The notes beneath the pieces were generated by a model that had not been told where the DNA came from, made no database searches, and saw only the letters and a program-made list of their open reading frames with translations. Source: a virus. From it: a stretch of DNA of 64,000 bases. Shown in pieces: positions 3,296-38,750 of this stretch (its first letter is position 1; each line of letters starts with the position of its first letter). The position numbers were made by a program, and so were the translations under genes. The stretch is from IMG/VR virus record IMGVR_UViG_3300042691_023936, positions 22,314 through 86,313 of that record; one strand, given 5' to 3'.

Positions 3296-4387
3296 ATGGC
3301 AAAAAAAGACAGTTTAACAGCTGCTATATCAGACGGTTTAAAAAAGCCGTTTGATATAGAAGCATTCAAAAAATCAAAATACTTAGATCAATCATCTAAG
3401 TTTAAAAAACAAAGATGGATTCCTTTTTCATCAGCAATGAATGATGCATTGTCTATCCCGGGAGTACCTATGGGGCATGTGTTTATAGCTCGTGGTGGGT
3501 CAGATACAGGTAAAACAACATTGTTAATCGAAACTGCAGTAGCAGCTCAAAAAATGGGTATATTACCTATATTCATTATTACTGAAATGAAGTGGGATTT
3601 TTCTCATGCTCAGAAAATGGGTTTTGAGTTGAATGAAATAGTTGACGAGGAAACAGGAGAAGTAAATTATACTGGGTTTTTCTTATATGTAGATAGAGCA
3701 TCATTGAATACTATTGAAGATGTAGCTGGATTTATTGCTGATATTTTAAATGAGCAAAAACAAGGAAAATTACCTCACGATTTATTGTTCTTATGGGATT
3801 CAGTTGGTTCTATTCCATGTGAAATGAGTGTTAAACAAGGAAATAATAATCCTATGTGGAATGCCGGCGCTATGGCTACTCAATTTGGTAATTTTATTAA
3901 TCAACAGTTTCCATTATCTCGTAAAGAAAAATATCCTTACACAAATACATTCTTTATTATTAACAAAACGGGTGTACAACCAGCTTTAACACCTATGTCT
4001 CAACCTAGGATGACAAATAAAGGTGGTAATTCAATGTATTGGGATGCTACTATTGTAGCTACGTTTGGTAACGTTACTAATAGTGGTACTTCTAAAATAT
4101 TTGCACAACATAAAGGCAAAAAAGTAGAATTTGCTAAACGTACTAAAATAGCAATTGATAAAATACATGCTGATTGTGGTATAGCAACAGCAACTACAGT
4201 AATTGTAACACCTCATGGTTTTATACCTGATGATAAAGAAGCAGAAAAAGAATATAAAAAACTTCATGCTCATGAGTGGTTTGGTGAAAAAGTAGATATT
4301 GAAAAACTTCAAATAATTGAAGATAATTCCGAGTGGGAAGAAAGTAGCAGAATATCACCAATGATCGAAGTAGATAATGAAGAATAA
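3296..4387 (+). CDS. uvsX: UvsX/RecA-like recombinase
   Basis: A 363-residue RecA-fold ATPase. Walker A is GGSDTGKTT at residues 67-75, and a hydrophobic strand ending LLFLWDSVGS acts as Walker B. The size and the position directly after gp32 match T4 UvsX, the strand-exchange protein of recombination-dependent replication. The C-terminus is acidic (EWEES, VDNEE). The gene overlaps the next by 11 bases, indicating translational coupling. Confidence 0.88.
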   Translation: MAKKDSLTAAISDGLKKPFDIEAFKKSKYLDQSSKFKKQRWIPFSSAMNDALSIPGVPMGHVFIARGGSDTGKTTLLIETAVAAQKMGILPIFIITEMKWDFSHAQKMGFELNEIVDEETGEVNYTGFFLYVDRASLNTIEDVAGFIADILNEQKQGKLPHDLLFLWDSVGSIPCEMSVKQGNNNPMWNAGAMATQFGNFINQQFPLSRKEKYPYTNTFFIINKTGVQPALTPMSQPRMTNKGGNSMYWDATIVATFGNVTNSGTSKIFAQHKGKKVEFAKRTKIAIDKIHADCGIATATTVIVTPHGFIPDDKEAEKEYKKLHAHEWFGEKVDIEKLQIIEDNSEWEESSRISPMIEVDNEE

Positions 4388-5399
4388 GTATGCTCAACTT
4401 TTATCTAATATAAATAATAATCCTCGTACTGCTCAAGATTCAATTTTAATAATTGATGGTTTAAATTGTTTTTTAAGAGCATTCACTATGATTAATCATA
4501 TAAACCCAGATGGAGCCCATATTGGTGGGCTTACTGGGTTTTTAAAATCAATTGGTTATGCTATAAAAATAATAGATCCAACTAAGGTAGTTATTGTATT
4601 TGATGGTATTGGTGGTTCAAATAATAAAAGAAACTTATATCCTGATTACAAAGCAAATAGAAATAAAAGTCGTATGACTAATTATTCTATATTCAGTAAT
4701 AAGGAAGAAGAAAATGAAGCCATCAATAACCAAATAAGTAGATTAATACAATATCTTAAATGTCTTCCAGTTAGTATTATTTGTATAGACGGTATTGAAG
4801 CAGATGATGTTATTGGTTATCTCGCGGTAAAATTCGAGAATTTTGCGTTAACTAAGGAAGTCACCATAATGTCCGCTGATAAAGATTTCTTGCAGTTAAC
4901 AAGCGATAAAACACAAGTTTATTCGCCTATTAAGAAGAAAATATATAAACCTGAAGATGTAAAAACTGAGTATATTGTAGATCATTTAAATTTTATAAAT
5001 TATAAAATATTAATGGGAGATACATCAGATAACTTACCTGGCGTACCTGGTTTAGGTCCTAAAAAACTAATTAAACTATTTCCTATTTTAAATGAAAACA
5101 GAAAAATTAGTTTAGATGAGATAATAGAATATTCTAAAACCAAAATTAACGAACATGCTTTATATTCTTCTGTTATAGAAAGATCATATCAGTTAAGTAT
5201 CAACATGCAATTAATGGATTTACAAAACATTCCTATATCAGATGAAAATAAAAGAGAAATACAACAAAATTTTAATGATCAATTTTCATTAAATAAACAT
5301 GTGTTTATGCAGATGTATTTAGCAGATCATCTAGAAGAAAACATACCTAACACATCAAATTGGCTTAATCAAATTTTTGGAGGGCTAGATAATTTTTAG
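4377..5399 (+). CDS. rnh: 5'-3' exonuclease / RNase H (FEN family)
   Basis: A 340-residue FEN/PIN-fold nuclease, the T4 RNase H type that removes RNA primers. Metal-binding acids are visible: Asp27 in LIIDGLN, Asp76 in VIVFDG, Asp143-Asp144 in EADDVIG, Asp168 and Asp170 in SADKDF, and Asp215 and Asp218 in GDTSDN. The helix-three-turn-helix DNA-binding loop is GVPGLGPKK (222-230). YPDYKANR near 88-95 is the helical-arch segment typical of the family. It overlaps uvsX and precedes the helicase gene. Confidence 0.9.
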   Translation: MKNKYAQLLSNINNNPRTAQDSILIIDGLNCFLRAFTMINHINPDGAHIGGLTGFLKSIGYAIKIIDPTKVVIVFDGIGGSNNKRNLYPDYKANRNKSRMTNYSIFSNKEEENEAINNQISRLIQYLKCLPVSIICIDGIEADDVIGYLAVKFENFALTKEVTIMSADKDFLQLTSDKTQVYSPIKKKIYKPEDVKTEYIVDHLNFINYKILMGDTSDNLPGVPGLGPKKLIKLFPILNENRKISLDEIIEYSKTKINEHALYSSVIERSYQLSINMQLMDLQNIPISDENKREIQQNFNDQFSLNKHVFMQMYLADHLEENIPNTSNWLNQIFGGLDNF

Positions 5400-22021: not shown

Positions 22022-24604
22022 ATGTATCAATCCGCATATTACGATAGAACATCCTACACTTATTATTTAAAAGATGATGAGAGAGGATGGATAGATTTTA
22101 AATACACACCTGAACTTTATAAAATAGATCCTAGTGGTCCATTAGAAACATTAGATGGTAAAAGAGCATATGCTGTACAAAAATACGACTGGAAAGATAC
22201 TTCACTATATGAAAAAGATGTAGATAAATTAACTCGAGTATTAATAGATCTATACAAAGATAGTGATGATGCTCCTAAATTCCATAATGTAGTTTATTTT
22301 GATATCGAGTGTGAAATTGGAGGAGCACTAACACCAGAATACATCAAAACAGCTCCTAAAAAAATGACATCTGTATCAGTTTATGATCATACCACTAAAC
22401 GTTACTATTGTTATATATTAGATGAAAAAAATCAACTAAAATTTACCGAAAACGAAAATAGAACCATAGTACCATTCACTACAGAAGCAGAAATGCTTCG
22501 TAAGTTTCTAGATTTATGGGAGGAATTAGATCCTACTATCATCACAGGATGGAATAGTGGATCTTTTGATATTCCTTACATGTATTACAGAATATTAAAT
22601 GTATTAGGTTACGATGAAGCCCAACGTTTATCTCCTCTACGTAAATTAAATTTTACTGAGTGGGATATTGCTCAACCAATAGAGCTAGGCGGTATTAATC
22701 ATCTAGATTATATGTTATTATTTAAAAAGTTCATTGTAAAACAAGAACCATCATATAAATTAGGTGATATAGGTACAAAATATGTTAAATTAGGTAAAGT
22801 TGAATATGAAGATAGTTTAGACCGTTTATTCCAGGATGATATTAATAAATTCATTGAGTATAACTTACGAGATGTTGAAATTATCATTGAATTAGAGAAA
22901 AAACTTAAATTTATTGACTTAACAGTAGCTATCTGTCATTTATGCCATGTACCTTACGAGCAAATCTATTTATCAACAGTACTGAATGATGGAGCTATAT
23001 TAACATATCTAAAACGACAAGATATAGTTTCACCAAACAAACCAACTACAATAAATCCATCACTAAAAGATAGTACAGATGATGATTATGCAGGTGGTTA
23101 TTTAAAGGATCCTATACCAGGACTATATGAGTGGGTTATTGATCTCGATTTTACTTCGCTGTATCCGTCGATTATTCGTTCACTCAATATAGGTATTGAA
23201 ACGCTCGTAGGACGCATAGTAAACAACGATAAATACGATAATCAATGGACGTATGAAGAGTTGTTAAACATGAAACCTGATACTTTAGTCACTATTGAAA
23301 AATTAAAAGAAAATTTTACATTATCACGAGCACAAGTACCTGTAAGTAAAATTATTAAATTAATTGAAGATAATAAGTGGATAACAGCAGCTAGTGGAGC
23401 TATATTCAGAACAGATAAATCATCAGTAGTATGTGAGGTATTAACAGACTGGTTTAATAAACGTAAACATTATAAAAAATTAATGTCTCAAGCATATAAA
23501 GCAGGAGATTCTAATTTAGGTGACCATTATCATCGATTACAACACGCTTATAAGATTAAATTGAATGACGTTTATGGTTGCTACGCTATTAATGGATGGC
23601 GCTATACAGATGGACATAAGATGATTTCATCAGCAATCACACTAACTGGTCAACGACTTTTACAGGAAAGTATATCATATATGAATGAACATATAGATAA
23701 AATATTAAGTACAACCAATGTAGATAGGATTATAACTAGTGATACCGATTCTTTATTTATCCATGTAAAAGATATATTACTTGATAGAGGAGTAGATTTA
23801 ACTAATAAAGAAGAATGTATTAGAGTAACATTAGAAATTGCTACTGAATTACAAACTGCCGCTAATAATTTTATAGGTGAGTTTGCTATGAGATCATTTA
23901 ATATACCTAATGATAGAACTCATTTCTTCGAATTAAAACAAGAAGTAGTAATCGAAAGAAGTTACCATTCAGGTAAACGTAGATATGCTATGTTAATTGT
24001 GAATAAGGAAGGAGTACCTGTAGAGGAGTTAGTAATGATGGGATTAGATTTGATGAAGTCAAATATGCCACCACTATATAAAAAATTCGGACAAAATCTA
24101 TTATCTGAAATAATGTCAGGTAAACCTAAAAATGAAATAGATACTAGTATAATAAACTTTAAATCATCTCTAAACAAACTACCTTGGTCAGATATTGCTA
24201 AACCAACAGGAGTAAAACAAATTGGTTCATATATAGCTAAACGCCCTTCACCTGGAGAAATATTTAGTGAATTAAAATTAAAATGTCCTATTAATACTAA
24301 AGCGGCTGTATATTATAATGACATTCTACGATTTAAACGATTAGATAAGCAATATTCTTGTTTTACTGAGGGTGATAAAATGAAATATGTTACTTTAAAA
24401 CCTAATCCGTTTGAAATAAATGTAATTGGATTTAATGGGAATGATCCTCAGTTCATCACGGATTTTATTGATAAATATGTTGATAGAGAAGATGCATTTA
24501 ACTCAGTATTATTAAATAAACTACAAGGTGTATATAATGATATAGGATGGGGTAGTGAATTCCCTGTATTAGATAAAATGATTTCAAAATTCTTTCGGTT
24601 TTAG
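22022..24604 (+). CDS. 43: Family B DNA polymerase (gp43-like)
   Basis: An 860-residue replicative polymerase. Proofreading exonuclease: ExoI FDIECE (Asp94, Glu96), ExoII GWNSGSFDIP (Asp183), ExoIII YNLRD (Tyr280, Asp284). Polymerase: motif A DLDFTSLYPS (Asp376), motif B around KIKLNDVYG (511-519), motif C SDTDS (Asp574, Asp576). The length is close to T4 gp43. The start at 22022 is chosen because upstream codons run through the terminator and promoter. The clamp gene follows with its own boxed promoter. Confidence 0.95.
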   Translation: MYQSAYYDRTSYTYYLKDDERGWIDFKYTPELYKIDPSGPLETLDGKRAYAVQKYDWKDTSLYEKDVDKLTRVLIDLYKDSDDAPKFHNVVYFDIECEIGGALTPEYIKTAPKKMTSVSVYDHTTKRYYCYILDEKNQLKFTENENRTIVPFTTEAEMLRKFLDLWEELDPTIITGWNSGSFDIPYMYYRILNVLGYDEAQRLSPLRKLNFTEWDIAQPIELGGINHLDYMLLFKKFIVKQEPSYKLGDIGTKYVKLGKVEYEDSLDRLFQDDINKFIEYNLRDVEIIIELEKKLKFIDLTVAICHLCHVPYEQIYLSTVLNDGAILTYLKRQDIVSPNKPTTINPSLKDSTDDDYAGGYLKDPIPGLYEWVIDLDFTSLYPSIIRSLNIGIETLVGRIVNNDKYDNQWTYEELLNMKPDTLVTIEKLKENFTLSRAQVPVSKIIKLIEDNKWITAASGAIFRTDKSSVVCEVLTDWFNKRKHYKKLMSQAYKAGDSNLGDHYHRLQHAYKIKLNDVYGCYAINGWRYTDGHKMISSAITLTGQRLLQESISYMNEHIDKILSTTNVDRIITSDTDSLFIHVKDILLDRGVDLTNKEECIRVTLEIATELQTAANNFIGEFAMRSFNIPNDRTHFFELKQEVVIERSYHSGKRRYAMLIVNKEGVPVEELVMMGLDLMKSNMPPLYKKFGQNLLSEIMSGKPKNEIDTSIINFKSSLNKLPWSDIAKPTGVKQIGSYIAKRPSPGEIFSELKLKCPINTKAAVYYNDILRFKRLDKQYSCFTEGDKMKYVTLKPNPFEINVIGFNGNDPQFITDFIDKYVDREDAFNSVLLNKLQGVYNDIGWGSEFPVLDKMISKFFRF

Positions 24605-32193: not shown

Positions 32194-33654
32194 ATGGAAA
32201 AAAAAGGTTATATCCCTAAGGATCAACGTAAAAAAATACTTCTTTTATGTGACGATATTAGAATGCACTCAGGTATTTCTACTATGGCTCGCGAATTAGT
32301 AGTAGGTACAGCCCATGTATTTAATTGGGTTAATATTGGAGGAGCAATCCAGCACTCTGAAGCAGGTAAACGATTAGATTTAAGTGAGGATAGTAGTAAA
32401 ATAACAGGAATTAAAGATGCTAGTGTATTTTTATATCCAACAAATGGATATGGAGATCAATCATTAGTAACTCAAATTATGAATATTGAAAAGCCGGATG
32501 CATTAATGATATTTACTGATCCTAGATATTGGGTTTGGTTATTCCAGATGGAACATGAGATTCGTATTAAAACTCCTATAATATATCTTAATATATGGGA
32601 CGACTTACCTTATCCTATGTATAATAAGTCGTTTTATGAGTCATGTGATGCTTTATTAGCTATAAGTAAACAAACAGAAAATATTAACAAAGTAGTATTA
32701 GGTGAATTAAGTAAAGACAAAGTAATTAAATATGTACCTCATGGTATAAATGAAGACCATTTCTTCCCTATCACTACAGATAAACCAGAATACCTATCAT
32801 TACAAGAATTTAAAAAACGTTTATTTAATAATAAACAGTATGATTTTACTTTATTATATAACGCTAGAAATATTCGTCGCAAATCAGTTCCAGATCTAAT
32901 GTTAGCATGGAAAATGTTTGTTGATGAATTACCAGAGGATAAAGCAAAGAAAACAGCATTTGTTTTACACACCCAAGCAATTGATGAAAACGGTACAGAT
33001 TTAATAGCTGTAAAAGAAATGTTATTTGGAAACCATGATAAATACAATATTATATTTTCAAATCAAAAATTAGAAGTTAATGGAATGAATTTATTATACA
33101 ATTCAGCAGATGCTATTGCTTTAATAAGTTCAAATGAAGGATGGGGATTATCATTAACAGAAGCAATGATGTGTGGTAAACCAATTATAGCAACTGTTAC
33201 AGGTGGTATGCAAGATCAAATGCGTTTTGAAGACGAAAATGGTGAATGGATTAAGTTTACTGAAGAATTTGGCTCAAACCATAAAGGTAAATTTAAAAAA
33301 CATGGTAAATGGGCGTTTCCTATATTCCCTAGCAATGTCAGCTTAATCGGCTCAGTTCCAACACCTTACATTTATGATGATAGAGCCCAACCAGAAGATG
33401 TAGCTACCGAAATACAAAAAATATATACTATTAAAACCAATTCTCCTGCGGAATATAATGAGATAGCTCAAGAGGCACGTAAGTGGGTGATTTCGGATGA
33501 ATCGATGATGTCTGCGCGTTTAATGTGCAAAAATTTTATTGATGGGGTTAATGAAACATTTACTAAATGGACACCAAGAGAATTATTTTCATTCACTAAA
33601 GTAGAACAATTAGATCAACCAAAACATTACGTTAAACACCCAATTTCAAAATAA
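32194..33654 (+). CDS. Glycosyltransferase, GT4-like
   Basis: A 486-residue GT-B glycosyltransferase. The N-terminal domain has LLLCDDIRMHSGISTMAREL. The C-terminal domain contains VPHGINEDHF and LISSNEGWGLSLTEAMMCGKPIIATVTGG, the EX7E-type donor site of GT4. It is probably cytoplasmic, transferring a nucleotide-activated sugar. It starts a glycan locus that runs to about 50.6 kb and is followed 10 bases later by a second GT4. Confidence 0.88.
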   Translation: MEKKGYIPKDQRKKILLLCDDIRMHSGISTMARELVVGTAHVFNWVNIGGAIQHSEAGKRLDLSEDSSKITGIKDASVFLYPTNGYGDQSLVTQIMNIEKPDALMIFTDPRYWVWLFQMEHEIRIKTPIIYLNIWDDLPYPMYNKSFYESCDALLAISKQTENINKVVLGELSKDKVIKYVPHGINEDHFFPITTDKPEYLSLQEFKKRLFNNKQYDFTLLYNARNIRRKSVPDLMLAWKMFVDELPEDKAKKTAFVLHTQAIDENGTDLIAVKEMLFGNHDKYNIIFSNQKLEVNGMNLLYNSADAIALISSNEGWGLSLTEAMMCGKPIIATVTGGMQDQMRFEDENGEWIKFTEEFGSNHKGKFKKHGKWAFPIFPSNVSLIGSVPTPYIYDDRAQPEDVATEIQKIYTIKTNSPAEYNEIAQEARKWVISDESMMSARLMCKNFIDGVNETFTKWTPRELFSFTKVEQLDQPKHYVKHPISK

Positions 33655-33664
33655 GAATAAAAAT

Positions 33665-34981
33665 ATGAATAAACCATTATTTGTTATATCATGCCCAATA
33701 GACTGCTATAGCGGATATTCAGCGCGCTCAAGAGACATCGTTAAAGCTTTACTAAAAACAAACAAATACGATATCAAAATTCTACCTCAGAGATGGGGTT
33801 CAACATCATTTGGATTTTTAAAAGCAGATAATCCTGAACATAAACAAATTCTAGATTGTATTTTACCTCAACCCCAGTTACCTAAACAACCTGATGTATG
33901 GATGCAAATTACAGTTCCAAATGAATTTCAAGCTGTAGGTAAATTTAATATAGGCGTAACCGCAGGTATTGAAACTACTATTTGTGATTCTAGTTGGATT
34001 GAAGGTTTAAATAGAATGAATCTAAATTTAGTATCATCAGAACATGCTAAAGCAGTATTTAAAAATTCTAAATTTGAAGCTCGTAATCAACAAACAGGCC
34101 AAGTTGAAAAAGTAATTGAACTAACATCACCGGTAGAGGTATTATTCGAAGGAGCAGATATTAATATCTATAAAAAGTTAGATACCTTGTCTGAGAATGA
34201 TTTAACTCAAACATTAGATGCTATCCCTGAAAAGTTTGCTTTCTTATTTGTAGGACATTGGTTACAAGGTGCTTTAGGTGAAGATAGAAAAAATGTAGGA
34301 ATGATGATTAAAACGTTTTTAGAAACATTTAAAAATATTAAAGACAAACCAGCATTAATTATAAAAACACAAGGAGCTACTGCATCTATTATAGATAAAA
34401 ATGAAATACTAGATAAAATTAGACAAATACAAGCGTTAGTAGACAGTAAAGACTTACCTAATATATATTTGTTACATGGTATGTTTGATGATGAAGAAAT
34501 GAATATGTTATATAATCATCCAAAAATAAAAGCGCATGTAACCTTTACTAAAGGTGAAGGGTTTGGTCGTCCATTATTAGAAGCATCTATTTCAGCTAAA
34601 CCAGTAATAGCTCCTAATTGGAGTGGACATATAGATTTCTTACATAAAGATTTCTCAGTATTATTACCAGGTCAAGTAACTCAAATTCATCCATCTGCAG
34701 TAATACAAAATATGCTTATTCCGGAATCAGGTTGGTTTACAGTAGATTATAAAATAGTCTCTGACAATTTAAGAGATGTTCATAAAAACTATAAAAATTA
34801 TGTTGAAGGAGCCAAAAGACAAGCGTATCATTCAAGAACAGAATTTAATTTGGATAAAATGGGTATTGCTTTGGATAATCTTACGGATAGTAAAATTCCT
34901 AAATTAACTGTTCTTAAACTTCCTACTCTTAAACGTATTGAGCTTCCCAAAACAGATAAAATTAAATCCCAAATCAAGTAA
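33665..34981 (+). CDS. Glycosyltransferase, GT4-like
   Basis: A 438-residue GT-B enzyme. The donor site is HVTFTKGEGFGRPLLEASISAKPVIAPNWSGH, with Glu-x7-Glu, and FLFVGHWLQGALGEDRKNV precedes it. The N-terminus (CPIDCYSGYSARSRDIVKALL) is a Gly-rich acceptor or nucleotide loop. The pair of GT4 enzymes could add successive sugars to one acceptor, phage DNA included. A homing endonuclease gene follows. Confidence 0.88.
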   Translation: MNKPLFVISCPIDCYSGYSARSRDIVKALLKTNKYDIKILPQRWGSTSFGFLKADNPEHKQILDCILPQPQLPKQPDVWMQITVPNEFQAVGKFNIGVTAGIETTICDSSWIEGLNRMNLNLVSSEHAKAVFKNSKFEARNQQTGQVEKVIELTSPVEVLFEGADINIYKKLDTLSENDLTQTLDAIPEKFAFLFVGHWLQGALGEDRKNVGMMIKTFLETFKNIKDKPALIIKTQGATASIIDKNEILDKIRQIQALVDSKDLPNIYLLHGMFDDEEMNMLYNHPKIKAHVTFTKGEGFGRPLLEASISAKPVIAPNWSGHIDFLHKDFSVLLPGQVTQIHPSAVIQNMLIPESGWFTVDYKIVSDNLRDVHKNYKNYVEGAKRQAYHSRTEFNLDKMGIALDNLTDSKIPKLTVLKLPTLKRIELPKTDKIKSQIK

Positions 34982-35017: not shown

Positions 35018-35686
35018 ATGATAATTATATATGTTTTAGAAAAAAATAATGTTCCTTTTTATGTAGGTAAATGTAATAATATTAATGTAAGATTTTGTCA
35101 ACATAAAAAAACATATGGTTTGGATATTAATATTAAAGTACTGGAGTTAGTAGATGATAAAGAATGGAAAGATAAAGAAAGATATTATATATTGTTACAT
35201 GAATCTAAAGGATTTAAATTAGAAAATAAGAATAAAGGTGGAGGTGGTCCTACTAATTTAAATGATATATCTAGACAAAAAATAACAGATAGTAAAACAG
35301 GAAATCATTATAAATTAAAAAATATTCCTGAAGGAGAAATAGAAAAATTATATGAATATAATAATATCCAACAAATATCAGAATTATTAAATTTAACATT
35401 TCCTACTGTAAAAAAATATCTAATAAATAAAAATATTTATATTAAGTATAAAAATAAACCTTCCATAAATGAAGAAACAAAAAGAAATTTTAAAAATAGA
35501 AAACATAGAGATGGAAAACCAATAATTCAATTAGATAAAAATAATAATATAATTAATGATTTTAATAGTATATCTGAAGCATGTATATATCTTAATAAAC
35601 CAAAACGAGAAGGAGATATAACAGCTGCTTGTCAAGGTAAACAAAAAACAGCTTTTGGATATAAATGGAAATATAAAGAAAAATAA
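35018..35686 (+). CDS. GIY-YIG homing endonuclease with NUMOD1
   Basis: A 222-residue endonuclease. IIYVLEKNNVPFYVGKC is the GIY-YIG core, and KDKERYYILLHES carries the catalytic Glu region. A central helix-turn-helix-like part (QQISELLNLTFPTVKKYL) and a C-terminal NUMOD1 (PIIQLDKNNNIINDFNSI) give DNA recognition. NUMOD1 ends KQKTAFGYKWKY, close to the homologous end of the endonuclease at 37235. It is inserted between glycan genes. Confidence 0.88.
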   Translation: MIIIYVLEKNNVPFYVGKCNNINVRFCQHKKTYGLDINIKVLELVDDKEWKDKERYYILLHESKGFKLENKNKGGGGPTNLNDISRQKITDSKTGNHYKLKNIPEGEIEKLYEYNNIQQISELLNLTFPTVKKYLINKNIYIKYKNKPSINEETKRNFKNRKHRDGKPIIQLDKNNNIINDFNSISEACIYLNKPKREGDITAACQGKQKTAFGYKWKYKEK

Positions 35687-36661: not shown

Positions 36662-37204
36662 ATGAAAATAAGTTATGGTATCACAGTATGTGATGAATAT
36701 GAGGAATTAGATCACTTACTTTATAGTATGCATCCTCTATTAGAAGATAGCGATGAAATAATAATTTTACGCGATATAAGCAAGACAAATTCTAAAGTCA
36801 CCAAAGTCATTGAATCCCATAGAGATATATATAAAAATCAACTTATAGTAGTAGAAGCTCGTTTAAATAATGACTTTGCTACATTTAAAAATCAATTATT
36901 AACTTGGGCTACTGGTGATTATCTATTTCAAATTGATGCTGATGAAACCCCTAACCCAATATTAATTGGAAATCTAAAATCAATATTAGAAGCAAATAAA
37001 GAGATTGATTGTTATTACATTCCACGAATTAATGTTGTGTGGGGGTTAACTCAAGACCATATTCAAAAATGGGGTTGGAAAATATCTAAATTAGAAAACC
37101 ATACCTCAGAAGATATACTAGATTTAGATAATCCTAAAGATAGAGATAGATATGAACTTTACAAAAAATATAATTTAATTATTGAAGAAAGTAAACTTTC
37201 CTGA
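36662..37204 (+). CDS. GT2 glycosyltransferase, N-terminal part (split gene)
   Basis: A 180-residue GT-A domain: ISYGITVCDEYEELDHLL, IIILRDISKTN, and DYLFQIDADETPNP with the DxD metal site. It stops soon after YELYKKYNLIIEESK, before the acceptor part of the family. The missing C-terminal part appears at 37879, after a homing endonuclease gene. The two together equal one GT2 of about 250 residues. Whether the halves assemble, as with the split NrdA of phage Aeh1, is unknown. Confidence 0.75.
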   Translation: MKISYGITVCDEYEELDHLLYSMHPLLEDSDEIIILRDISKTNSKVTKVIESHRDIYKNQLIVVEARLNNDFATFKNQLLTWATGDYLFQIDADETPNPILIGNLKSILEANKEIDCYYIPRINVVWGLTQDHIQKWGWKISKLENHTSEDILDLDNPKDRDRYELYKKYNLIIEESKLS

Positions 37205-37210
37205 TATTTA
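37203..37210 (+). promoter_or_regulatory. Bare GATATTTA promoter element
   Basis: GATATTTAT immediately follows the premature stop of the GT2 fragment, within an inverted repeat (GATATT at 37203, AATATC further downstream). It precedes the inserted homing endonuclease gene and was probably brought in with it. Confidence 0.45.
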
Positions 37211-37234
37211 TAATAAATAATATCTGGGTAATTT

Positions 37235-37891
37235 ATGAAATCTTATATATATTCTTATTTTGATAAGAAAAAACAAAAAATTTGTTATGTAGGTAAAACT
37301 AATGGTAATGAAAAAACATATAGAACTGGGAGTAAAATATTGAAACGTTATATATCTTTATATGGATATGATGTTTTTGATAATAGGTTTGATAGAAATG
37401 TTATTGAATATTATTCTATAGAACAGTTAGATAAAAGAGAAGAATATTGGATTGAATATTATGATACTTTTAATAATGGTTTAAATTTAACAAAAGGAGG
37501 TAGATATGATTGGAAACGGAGTTATTTTAAACCTGTATTACAATATGATTTAAAAGGTAACTTTATTAAAGAATGGGAATGTGGAAAATGGGCAGCTATA
37601 GAATTAAAAATACAAATTGACGGTATTAGTGCTTGCTGTATGGGAAAACAAAAAACAGCGGGAGGTTATATTTGGATGCATAAAACAAAGAAAACAATAA
37701 TACAATATATAACCCCAATTGTAAGAAAACAATATAAAAATAAGGTTACTCGGATTAAAAATCAAGCAATAGAAATAGAAAACAAACAATACAAAAGTAT
37801 TACCCAGGCTGCAAAAGATTTAAATATGACCTTTGGTAAATTAAATGGAAAAATAAAAAATAATCAAATTAAGTATAAATGGCTAAAATAA
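37235..37891 (+). CDS. GIY-YIG homing endonuclease splitting a GT2 gene
   Basis: A 218-residue endonuclease. SYIYSYFDKKKQKICYVGKT is the catalytic core and REEYWIEYYDTF has the catalytic Glu. NUMOD1 follows (PVLQYDLKGNFIKEWECG) and a C-terminal helix-turn-helix-like end (SITQAAKDLNMTFGKLNG). It overlaps the downstream GT2 fragment by 13 bases, whose ATG was created inside this gene. The insert holds almost nothing but this gene, so it is not a group I intron. Confidence 0.88.
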   Translation: MKSYIYSYFDKKKQKICYVGKTNGNEKTYRTGSKILKRYISLYGYDVFDNRFDRNVIEYYSIEQLDKREEYWIEYYDTFNNGLNLTKGGRYDWKRSYFKPVLQYDLKGNFIKEWECGKWAAIELKIQIDGISACCMGKQKTAGGYIWMHKTKKTIIQYITPIVRKQYKNKVTRIKNQAIEIENKQYKSITQAAKDLNMTFGKLNGKIKNNQIKYKWLK

Positions 37892-38109
37892 AAATTAAAT
37901 ATTACGAACCAATAATAAATTGGTGTGACCCCCAAATGCGCCTATTTAAATTAAATCAAGGTATTAAGTGGAAAAATAAAGTTCATGAAGTGTTGGAAGG
38001 ACACAGTACCCTTAGTACATTACCATATGATACAGAAGATTTTTGTTTATATCATATTAAATCAATAGAAAAACAGGAAAAACAAAATAATTTTTATAAT
38101 ACTATTTAA
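37879..38109 (+). CDS. GT2 glycosyltransferase, C-terminal part
   Basis: A 76-residue fragment: IKYYEPIINWCDPQMRLFK, GIKWKNKVHEVL and LYHIKSIEKQEKQNNFY match the acceptor-side end of GT2 enzymes that carry a (W/V)-H-E motif. It continues directly from LIIEESK of the fragment ending at 37204. It is expressed, if at all, by an ATG inside the endonuclease gene. Confidence 0.7.
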   Translation: MAKIKIKYYEPIINWCDPQMRLFKLNQGIKWKNKVHEVLEGHSTLSTLPYDTEDFCLYHIKSIEKQEKQNNFYNTI

Positions 38110-38111
38110 TT

Positions 38112-38750
38112 ATGGCAAACGGAATTTATAAAGTAACAGAAGATTTTGAAACAGCATTAGGAAAATATACTGGTGCTCCTTATGTTATAACTGTTGATAA
38201 TCAATCAAATGCTCTATTTTTAGCATTGATGTATGAAAATGTTAAAGGAAAAGAAATTACTATTCCTTGTCGTACATACCCCTCAGTACCTTGTGAAATA
38301 ATTCATGCCGGTGCTAAAGTAAATTTCAAACCAGTTAAAGGCACTACAATCAAAGGAGCATACCAGTTAGAACCAACCAACGTTTGGGATTCAGCATTAT
38401 CATTTACTGCGGATATGTACAAACCTGGTACTCATATGTGTGTTTCATTTACAGGTCCCTATAAACATTTTAAATTATCCAAAGGAGGAGCTATATTGAC
38501 TGATAATGAAGAAGCATATCTTTGGTTTAAAAGAGCAAGATACTCAGGACGTAGAGAGTGTTCATATCATGAAGATAATCTTGATATGATAGGTTGGAAT
38601 TTTTATATGATGCCTGAATTAGCTGCTAGAGGATTACTTTTAATTGGACAGTTTTATAATATGGATGGTACTAAAAAACATAATGCTGATTTAGAATTAC
38701 CATACCCAGATTTATCACAATTTGAAGTTTATATAAAAGCTAATAGATGA
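38112..38750 (+). CDS. DegT/DnrJ-like sugar aminotransferase, short
   Basis: A 212-residue PLP-fold protein. ALGKYTGAPYVITVDNQSNALFLAL is the start of the DegT family fold, and SFTGPYKHFKLSKGGAIL carries the PLP Lys segment. The small C-terminal domain is cut short compared with about 370 residues. It would install an amino group on a keto-sugar, or be a variant. It overlaps the next gene by 4 bases. Confidence 0.7.
   Translation: MANGIYKVTEDFETALGKYTGAPYVITVDNQSNALFLALMYENVKGKEITIPCRTYPSVPCEIIHAGAKVNFKPVKGTTIKGAYQLEPTNVWDSALSFTADMYKPGTHMCVSFTGPYKHFKLSKGGAILTDNEEAYLWFKRARYSGRRECSYHEDNLDMIGWNFYMMPELAARGLLLIGQFYNMDGTKKHNADLELPYPDLSQFEVYIKANR

Follow-up and report, generated by a model that had tools for sequence, protein, structure and literature searches.

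That homing endonuclease genes (HEGs) can leave phage genes in pieces is already known from Aeromonas phage Aeh1, in which nrdA is split by mobE (Friedrich et al. 2007, cited in PMC2988022). Genes in pieces of this origin are known from isolated examples among T4-like phages, in which it was unclear whether the HEG had caused the split and what followed. In gene 43 of Aeromonas phages 25 (seg43) and 44RR (IC-UTS) the split holds a HEG in one phage and none in the other, and whether the HEG came first is unclear (PMC2988022). A HEG also lies between two parts of one enzyme in the T4 topoisomerase genes 39/60 with mobA (PMC2988022), and in T4-like phages SegH and Hef are reported to take the place of mobC and mobE (cited in PMC2988022). 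Finally, fractured genes with split inteins and HEGs have reportedly been found (Dassa et al. 2009).

We analyzed a stretch of 64,000 nucleotides of viral DNA (IMG/VR record IMGVR_UViG_3300042691_023936, positions 22,314 to 86,313; hereafter the window), in which a GT2 glycosyltransferase gene is split by a free-standing HEG. A second IMG/VR record, IMGVR_UViG_3300008450_000004, has the identical arrangement. As in Aeh1 nrdA/mobE, a free-standing HEG divides one enzyme gene into two ORFs without an intron. Unlike in Aeh1, the host gene is another one and the nuclease in the window is of the GIY-YIG type; moreover, 12 loci carry a split at the GT2 site, the HEG takes its flanking linker along, and in some splits the HEG has decayed. 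New are the recurrence, the linker-carrying cassette, the turnover of HEGs at a single site, and direct evidence of splits that persist after the HEG is gone. The features of the split locus are as follows.

36662..37204, + strand: N-part of the split GT2 glycosyltransferase, 180 aa, stop included; Pfam Glycos_transf_2, E 7e-10
37067..37201, + strand: N-tail linker KWGWKISKLENH...IIEESKLS, 45 aa with the KWGW anchor counted; part of the mobile cassette
37205..37234, + strand: HEG leader, with the motif TATTTATAATAAA at 37205-37217 in a hairpin loop; proposed late-expression switch
37235..37891, + strand: free-standing GIY-YIG HEG, 218 aa, with C-terminal NUMOD DNA-binding domains
37529..37684, + strand: NUMOD1 / I-HmuI-NUMOD-like region, common to the GIY-YIG and HNH HEGs at the site
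37879..38109, + strand: C-part of the split GT2, 76 aa, stop included; start codon within the 3' end of the HEG
37879..37917, + strand: C-head linker MAKIKIKYYEPII; part of the mobile cassette

A sequence-only reading of the window had proposed a GT2 gene split by a free-standing HEG, and this held, with the ORFs where it had placed them. The overlap it described between the C-part ATG and the endonuclease gene also held, the ATG overlapping the last 13 nt of the HEG. The end it gave for the N-part, LIIEESK, had to be corrected, as the N-part runs to LIIEESKLS before its stop, and its statement that the insert is essentially all endonuclease gene held only in part, since a 30-nt leader with a hairpin separates the N-part from the HEG. 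The criterion of a GT-A fold with a DxD motif was met by the Pfam match, the best PDB neighbors (the glycosyltransferases SunS, ThuS and TarP) and an invariant DAD motif; the C-part gave no match in Pfam. For the HEG, Pfam returned NUMOD domains, and a PHROG homing endonuclease family was matched at E 1.6e-11. As a single sequence against Pfam the HEG did not reach the GIY-YIG domain. However, its family profile matched the I-TevI GIY-YIG catalytic domain (1ln0, E 0.0022) and the residues YIY...YVG are present, by which the criterion of a GIY-YIG catalytic domain is met.

HEGs often reside in introns and inteins, and it could be argued that the insert is spliced as a group I or group II intron, or that a split intein or ribosomal bypassing unites the halves. 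Our results all but exclude this. No credible Rfam match to a group I or II intron was found in the window or in ten split-GT2 loci, in keeping with the earlier claim that the insert is not an intron; with only 30 nt upstream of the HEG, and with the HEG overlapping the C-part, there is no room for a ribozyme core. Neither half had a Pfam intein match, and the linker residues are plain coding sequence in intact ORFs. The GT2 site resembles the fractured genes of Dassa et al. (2009) in having a HEG between gene halves, but not in having a split intein, and the criteria for a group I intron and a split intein were both unmet. T4 gene 60 is bypassed. The 39/60-mobA arrangement differs from the GT2 site by this bypass element and by its HNH nuclease; at GT2 there is no evidence of bypassing, which we rejected because the gaps of the split loci without a HEG (71, 72 and 136 nt) share no frame. 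We retain the reading of two separate ORFs around a free-standing HEG.

The sequence-only reading had called for an intact homologue in related phages, and would have been refuted by homologues that are separate genes. Intact homologues were found, and the refutation fails: at 114 of the 119 loci with homologues of both the N- and the C-part, the two lie in one ORF, and the five others are the window (three copies), L063, which is also split, and L082, which is frameshifted. The intact ORFs are usually 200-215 aa long. The closest relatives of the window gene (L055, L057, L058, L061, L062) are intact and of a short form, and the window C-part is 88% identical to the C-terminus of intact L055, the highest value among the nearest relatives. 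In these nearest intact relatives, ~35 residues of the N-part end and ~10 of the C-part start are missing. The short intact forms have ~8 residues separating the KWGW and N[FW]PDPQ motifs, whereas the split gene has a 41-aa N-tail, then the HEG, then a 13-aa C-head. In a smaller set of intact ORFs (L205/L206, L209, L210, L212, L224, L225) the long linker is uninterrupted; in L205 it reads ...FIIEETDTMGKVKIKYYMPIIN... Given the single-ORF relatives and the uninterrupted long linkers, the two ORFs of the window represent parts of a single gene. Among isolate phages blastn gave no match, isolate phage records held only distant intact GT2s (in five records), and nothing was found when genome contigs were scanned with the linker. 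The earlier suggestion that the C-part ATG was newly gained is probably not correct: an internal Met of the intact long L205 (...IIEETDTMGKVKIKYY...) coincides with the C-part start, and the ATG travels with the cassette. It had also been missed that the insertion is not clean, that the whole unit is mobile and recurrent at one site, and that the HEG has sometimes decayed.

Twelve distinct loci are split at exactly the point seen in the window. The gap holds a window-type GIY-YIG gene in six (the window, L213 (=L214), L216, L222, L223, L231), another GIY-YIG gene in one (L131), an HNH gene in two (L063, L202), and no intact HEG, only decayed remnants, in three (L123, L204, L207). Full-length window-type HEGs were found in IMG/VR at the GT2 site only; among the HNH relatives of L202 and L063 only those two lie within GT2, and the relatives examined sit elsewhere. 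On a tree of the gene bodies, with linker and HEG excluded and 11 of the 12 split loci included, split and intact genes are intermixed (10 changes, at least six of them forced by well-supported branches), and split labels cluster no more than shuffled labels. The number of changes may be inflated by intragenic recombination. The sequences show that the cassette entered GT2 genes repeatedly.

Co-conversion of flanks is expected of homing (PMC2988022). Upstream and downstream of the shared block L213 and L216 have ~50% DNA identity, compared to 98-100% across ~830 nt, a block running from the KWGW codons via tail, stop, HEG and ATG to the NWSDYQ codons. We interpret this block as the co-conversion footprint expected from homing, an inference from sequence alone in the absence of crosses; as such a footprint, homing with co-conversion of flanks is met in this pair. 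It should be stressed that the clear footprint belongs to L213/L216 and not to the window copy, whose nearest relatives have diverged so far on the N side that an upstream breakpoint cannot be seen. A before/after pair is provided by L213 and the intact L083, in which the gene bodies are 83% and 81.5% identical at the DNA level and only the loop is replaced. In the window lineage a loop of ~8 codons gave way to a 41-codon N-tail, a stop, the HEG, a start and a 13-codon C-head. Thus tail, HEG and C-head move between phages as a block, bounded by KWGW and NWxDxQ. Furthermore, the tails of L131 (GIY-YIG) and L202 (HNH) are 85-95% identical in DNA beside unrelated catalytic domains, so the HEG is exchangeable while the linker ends stay. 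Swapping of the HEG at one site recalls SegH and Hef; their sites are intergenic, whereas the GT2 site is inside a gene and its linker ends are kept.

In the three split loci without an intact HEG the gap is reduced to 136 nt (L207), 72 nt (L204) and 71 nt (L123), and both halves are still open. All three gaps hold decayed pieces matching 3' parts of HEGs. The L207 gap (LGFLXGFKNGEIEKNIKP-KRKEYXK) aligned with LGFIWEFKTEKIKKNIKPGARKEYKK of L223 at a score of 74, reached in 0/300 shuffles (best shuffle 55); the corresponding counts were 1/300 for L204 and 2/300 for L123, and the evidence from these two loci is modest when each is taken singly. With this reservation, the relics indicate that the HEG arrived first in the three lineages and was later lost. 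The HEG can hence be exchanged or decay with both gene halves intact. The presence of a HEG in some splits and not in others is shared with gene 43 of phages 25 and 44RR; unlike there, the GT2 gaps without a HEG hold HEG relics. Alternatively, the split may have come first, and HEGs may later have invaded a harmless gap between already separate genes. This would accommodate the three split loci without an intact HEG and the different HEG families at one site, the latter implying that later HEGs probably replaced earlier ones in an already split gene. However, all three HEG-less gaps carry HEG 3' relics, the split genes form no single clade, and in L213/L216 the split ends move along with the HEG. 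We therefore regard this alternative as unlikely. It cannot be excluded for every locus, but as a general origin it is opposed by the relics and the L213/L216 footprint, and a split made by the HEG remains our preferred reading.

A further objection would be that the split copy is dead, the HEG having inactivated the glycosyltransferase and the halves being in decay. Favoring this, the C-part is short and phages may be able to do without the glycosyltransferases in their islands. This is very unlikely in light of the conservation of both halves. All 12 C-half invariants, as defined from 65 intact proteins, are kept in the ten split C-parts checked, three HEG-less lineages included. Both ORFs are open, and dN/dS pooled over the split loci is low (N-body 0.30, N-tail 0.17, C-head 0.10, C-body 0.20). 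Nearly all N-half invariants, the DAD motif among them, are kept in the split loci, with the exceptions of column G128, V126I in L207 and A93S in L223, which reads DSDE at the DAD motif. Synonymous divergence is similar among the gene segments and near saturation, and the dN/dS values should be taken as indicative only. With that proviso, the linker is the most constrained protein segment of the gene, and recent co-conversion alone would not yield its low dN/dS. The tail of the window copy itself seems less constrained (pN 0.26 and pS 0.34 against L123). The criteria of the Aeh1 nrdA/mobE type, i.e. single-ORF homologues, a free-standing HEG without intron or intein, and retention of the conserved residues of both halves, were all met. 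The comparison with Aeh1 made in the sequence-only reading was accordingly the right one (PMC2988022), although assembly of the halves remains inferred.

We consider it likely, in the absence of any experiment, that the GIY-YIG HEG is the core of a mobile gene-splitting cassette in the GT2 gene. In this explanation the cassette consists, in order, of the N-tail linker with its stop codon, the HEG leader, the HEG, the start codon and the C-head linker. The endonuclease would cut GT2 alleles without the cassette, and double-strand-break repair would copy the cassette in together with its flanks, replacing the short variable loop between KWGW and NWxDxQ. Each half would then be translated on its own, with re-initiation at the overlapping ATG for the C-part, and the two would assemble into one GT-A enzyme with the help of beta-hairpin strands from N-tail and C-head. 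Expression, cleavage, homing and assembly of the halves are all inferred. An AlphaFold2 model of the intact long L209 (pLDDT 93.8) places the split point at a predicted beta-hairpin turn between strands 173-175 and 179-182, and this hairpin lies in the segment missing from the short forms. The N-tail strand may thus pair with the C-head strand of the other chain and aid docking, but assembly has not been shown. A bolder reading, against which we judge the balance to tip slightly, is that the HEG carries its own protein docking module, N-tail and C-head forming a beta-hairpin-based clamp. If true, the clamp would reassemble any recipient GT-A enzyme at once, and naive genes would be split without cost; in contrast to an intron or intein, the element would be a mobile gene-splitting cassette that ensures its own tolerance.

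At the GT2 site invasion, replacement of the HEG and its decay can all be followed, the split persists, and intact relatives are there for comparison. The findings suggest permanent division of one protein into two by a selfish element that brings along the sequence making the split tolerable. The glycosylation island appears to be a hot spot for HEG-made split genes.

The HEG leader adds a further likeness to Aeh1 mobE, which has a leader with hairpin and promoter; for the window the promoter role is inferred. For I-TevI and segB of T4 and mobE of Aeh1, early transcripts have the HEG start blocked by a hairpin, and translation is restored by use of a late promoter (PMC2988022). In the window the motif TATTTATAATAAA lies in a hairpin loop directly upstream of the HEG start. 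Across the collected loci it occurs exactly, at most 60 nt upstream, in 18/132 HEGs versus 13/2440 other ORFs. The arms flanking the motif pair with their own partner at a mean of -7.9 kcal/mol, compared to -4.3 with the arms of other leaders, an advantage seen in 0/2000 permutations; the hairpin of the window leader itself is weak. By analogy, and with the promoter role of the motif inferred, the HEGs of these phages likely share a late-promoter/hairpin switch. The motif was also noted in the HEG leaders of L055, L213, L222, L231 and L309-L369. Such leaders precede GIY-YIG and HNH HEGs at many genomic sites, and their stems differ yet pair.

Some minor observations concern neighboring genes. 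A second HEG in the window (35018-35686, GIY-YIG and NUMOD1) is apparently intergenic, between genes for a glycosyltransferase and a zinc-ribbon protein; a 32-nt similarity at ~35689 was dismissed as low complexity. In L338 (3302-5434; also L339) a GIY-YIG HEG (3979-4611) with no Rfam intron divides a homologue of the window glycosyltransferase at 33665-34981 into parts of 175 and 268 aa. In L123 (676-2945) a homologue of the window glycosyltransferase at 32194-33654 is likewise in two pieces, of 182 and 306 aa, split by an HNH-like HEG (1231-1902) and a 51-aa ORF. At L223 6824-7660 no stop interrupts the reading frame between the split C-part and a methyltransferase-like ORF; the C-half may be fused to the following gene. 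Finally, the window carries at 38112-38750 a DegT/WecE-like aminotransferase of just 212 aa, where the families have ~360-400 aa, and a similar short form is present in Flavobacterium phage immuto.
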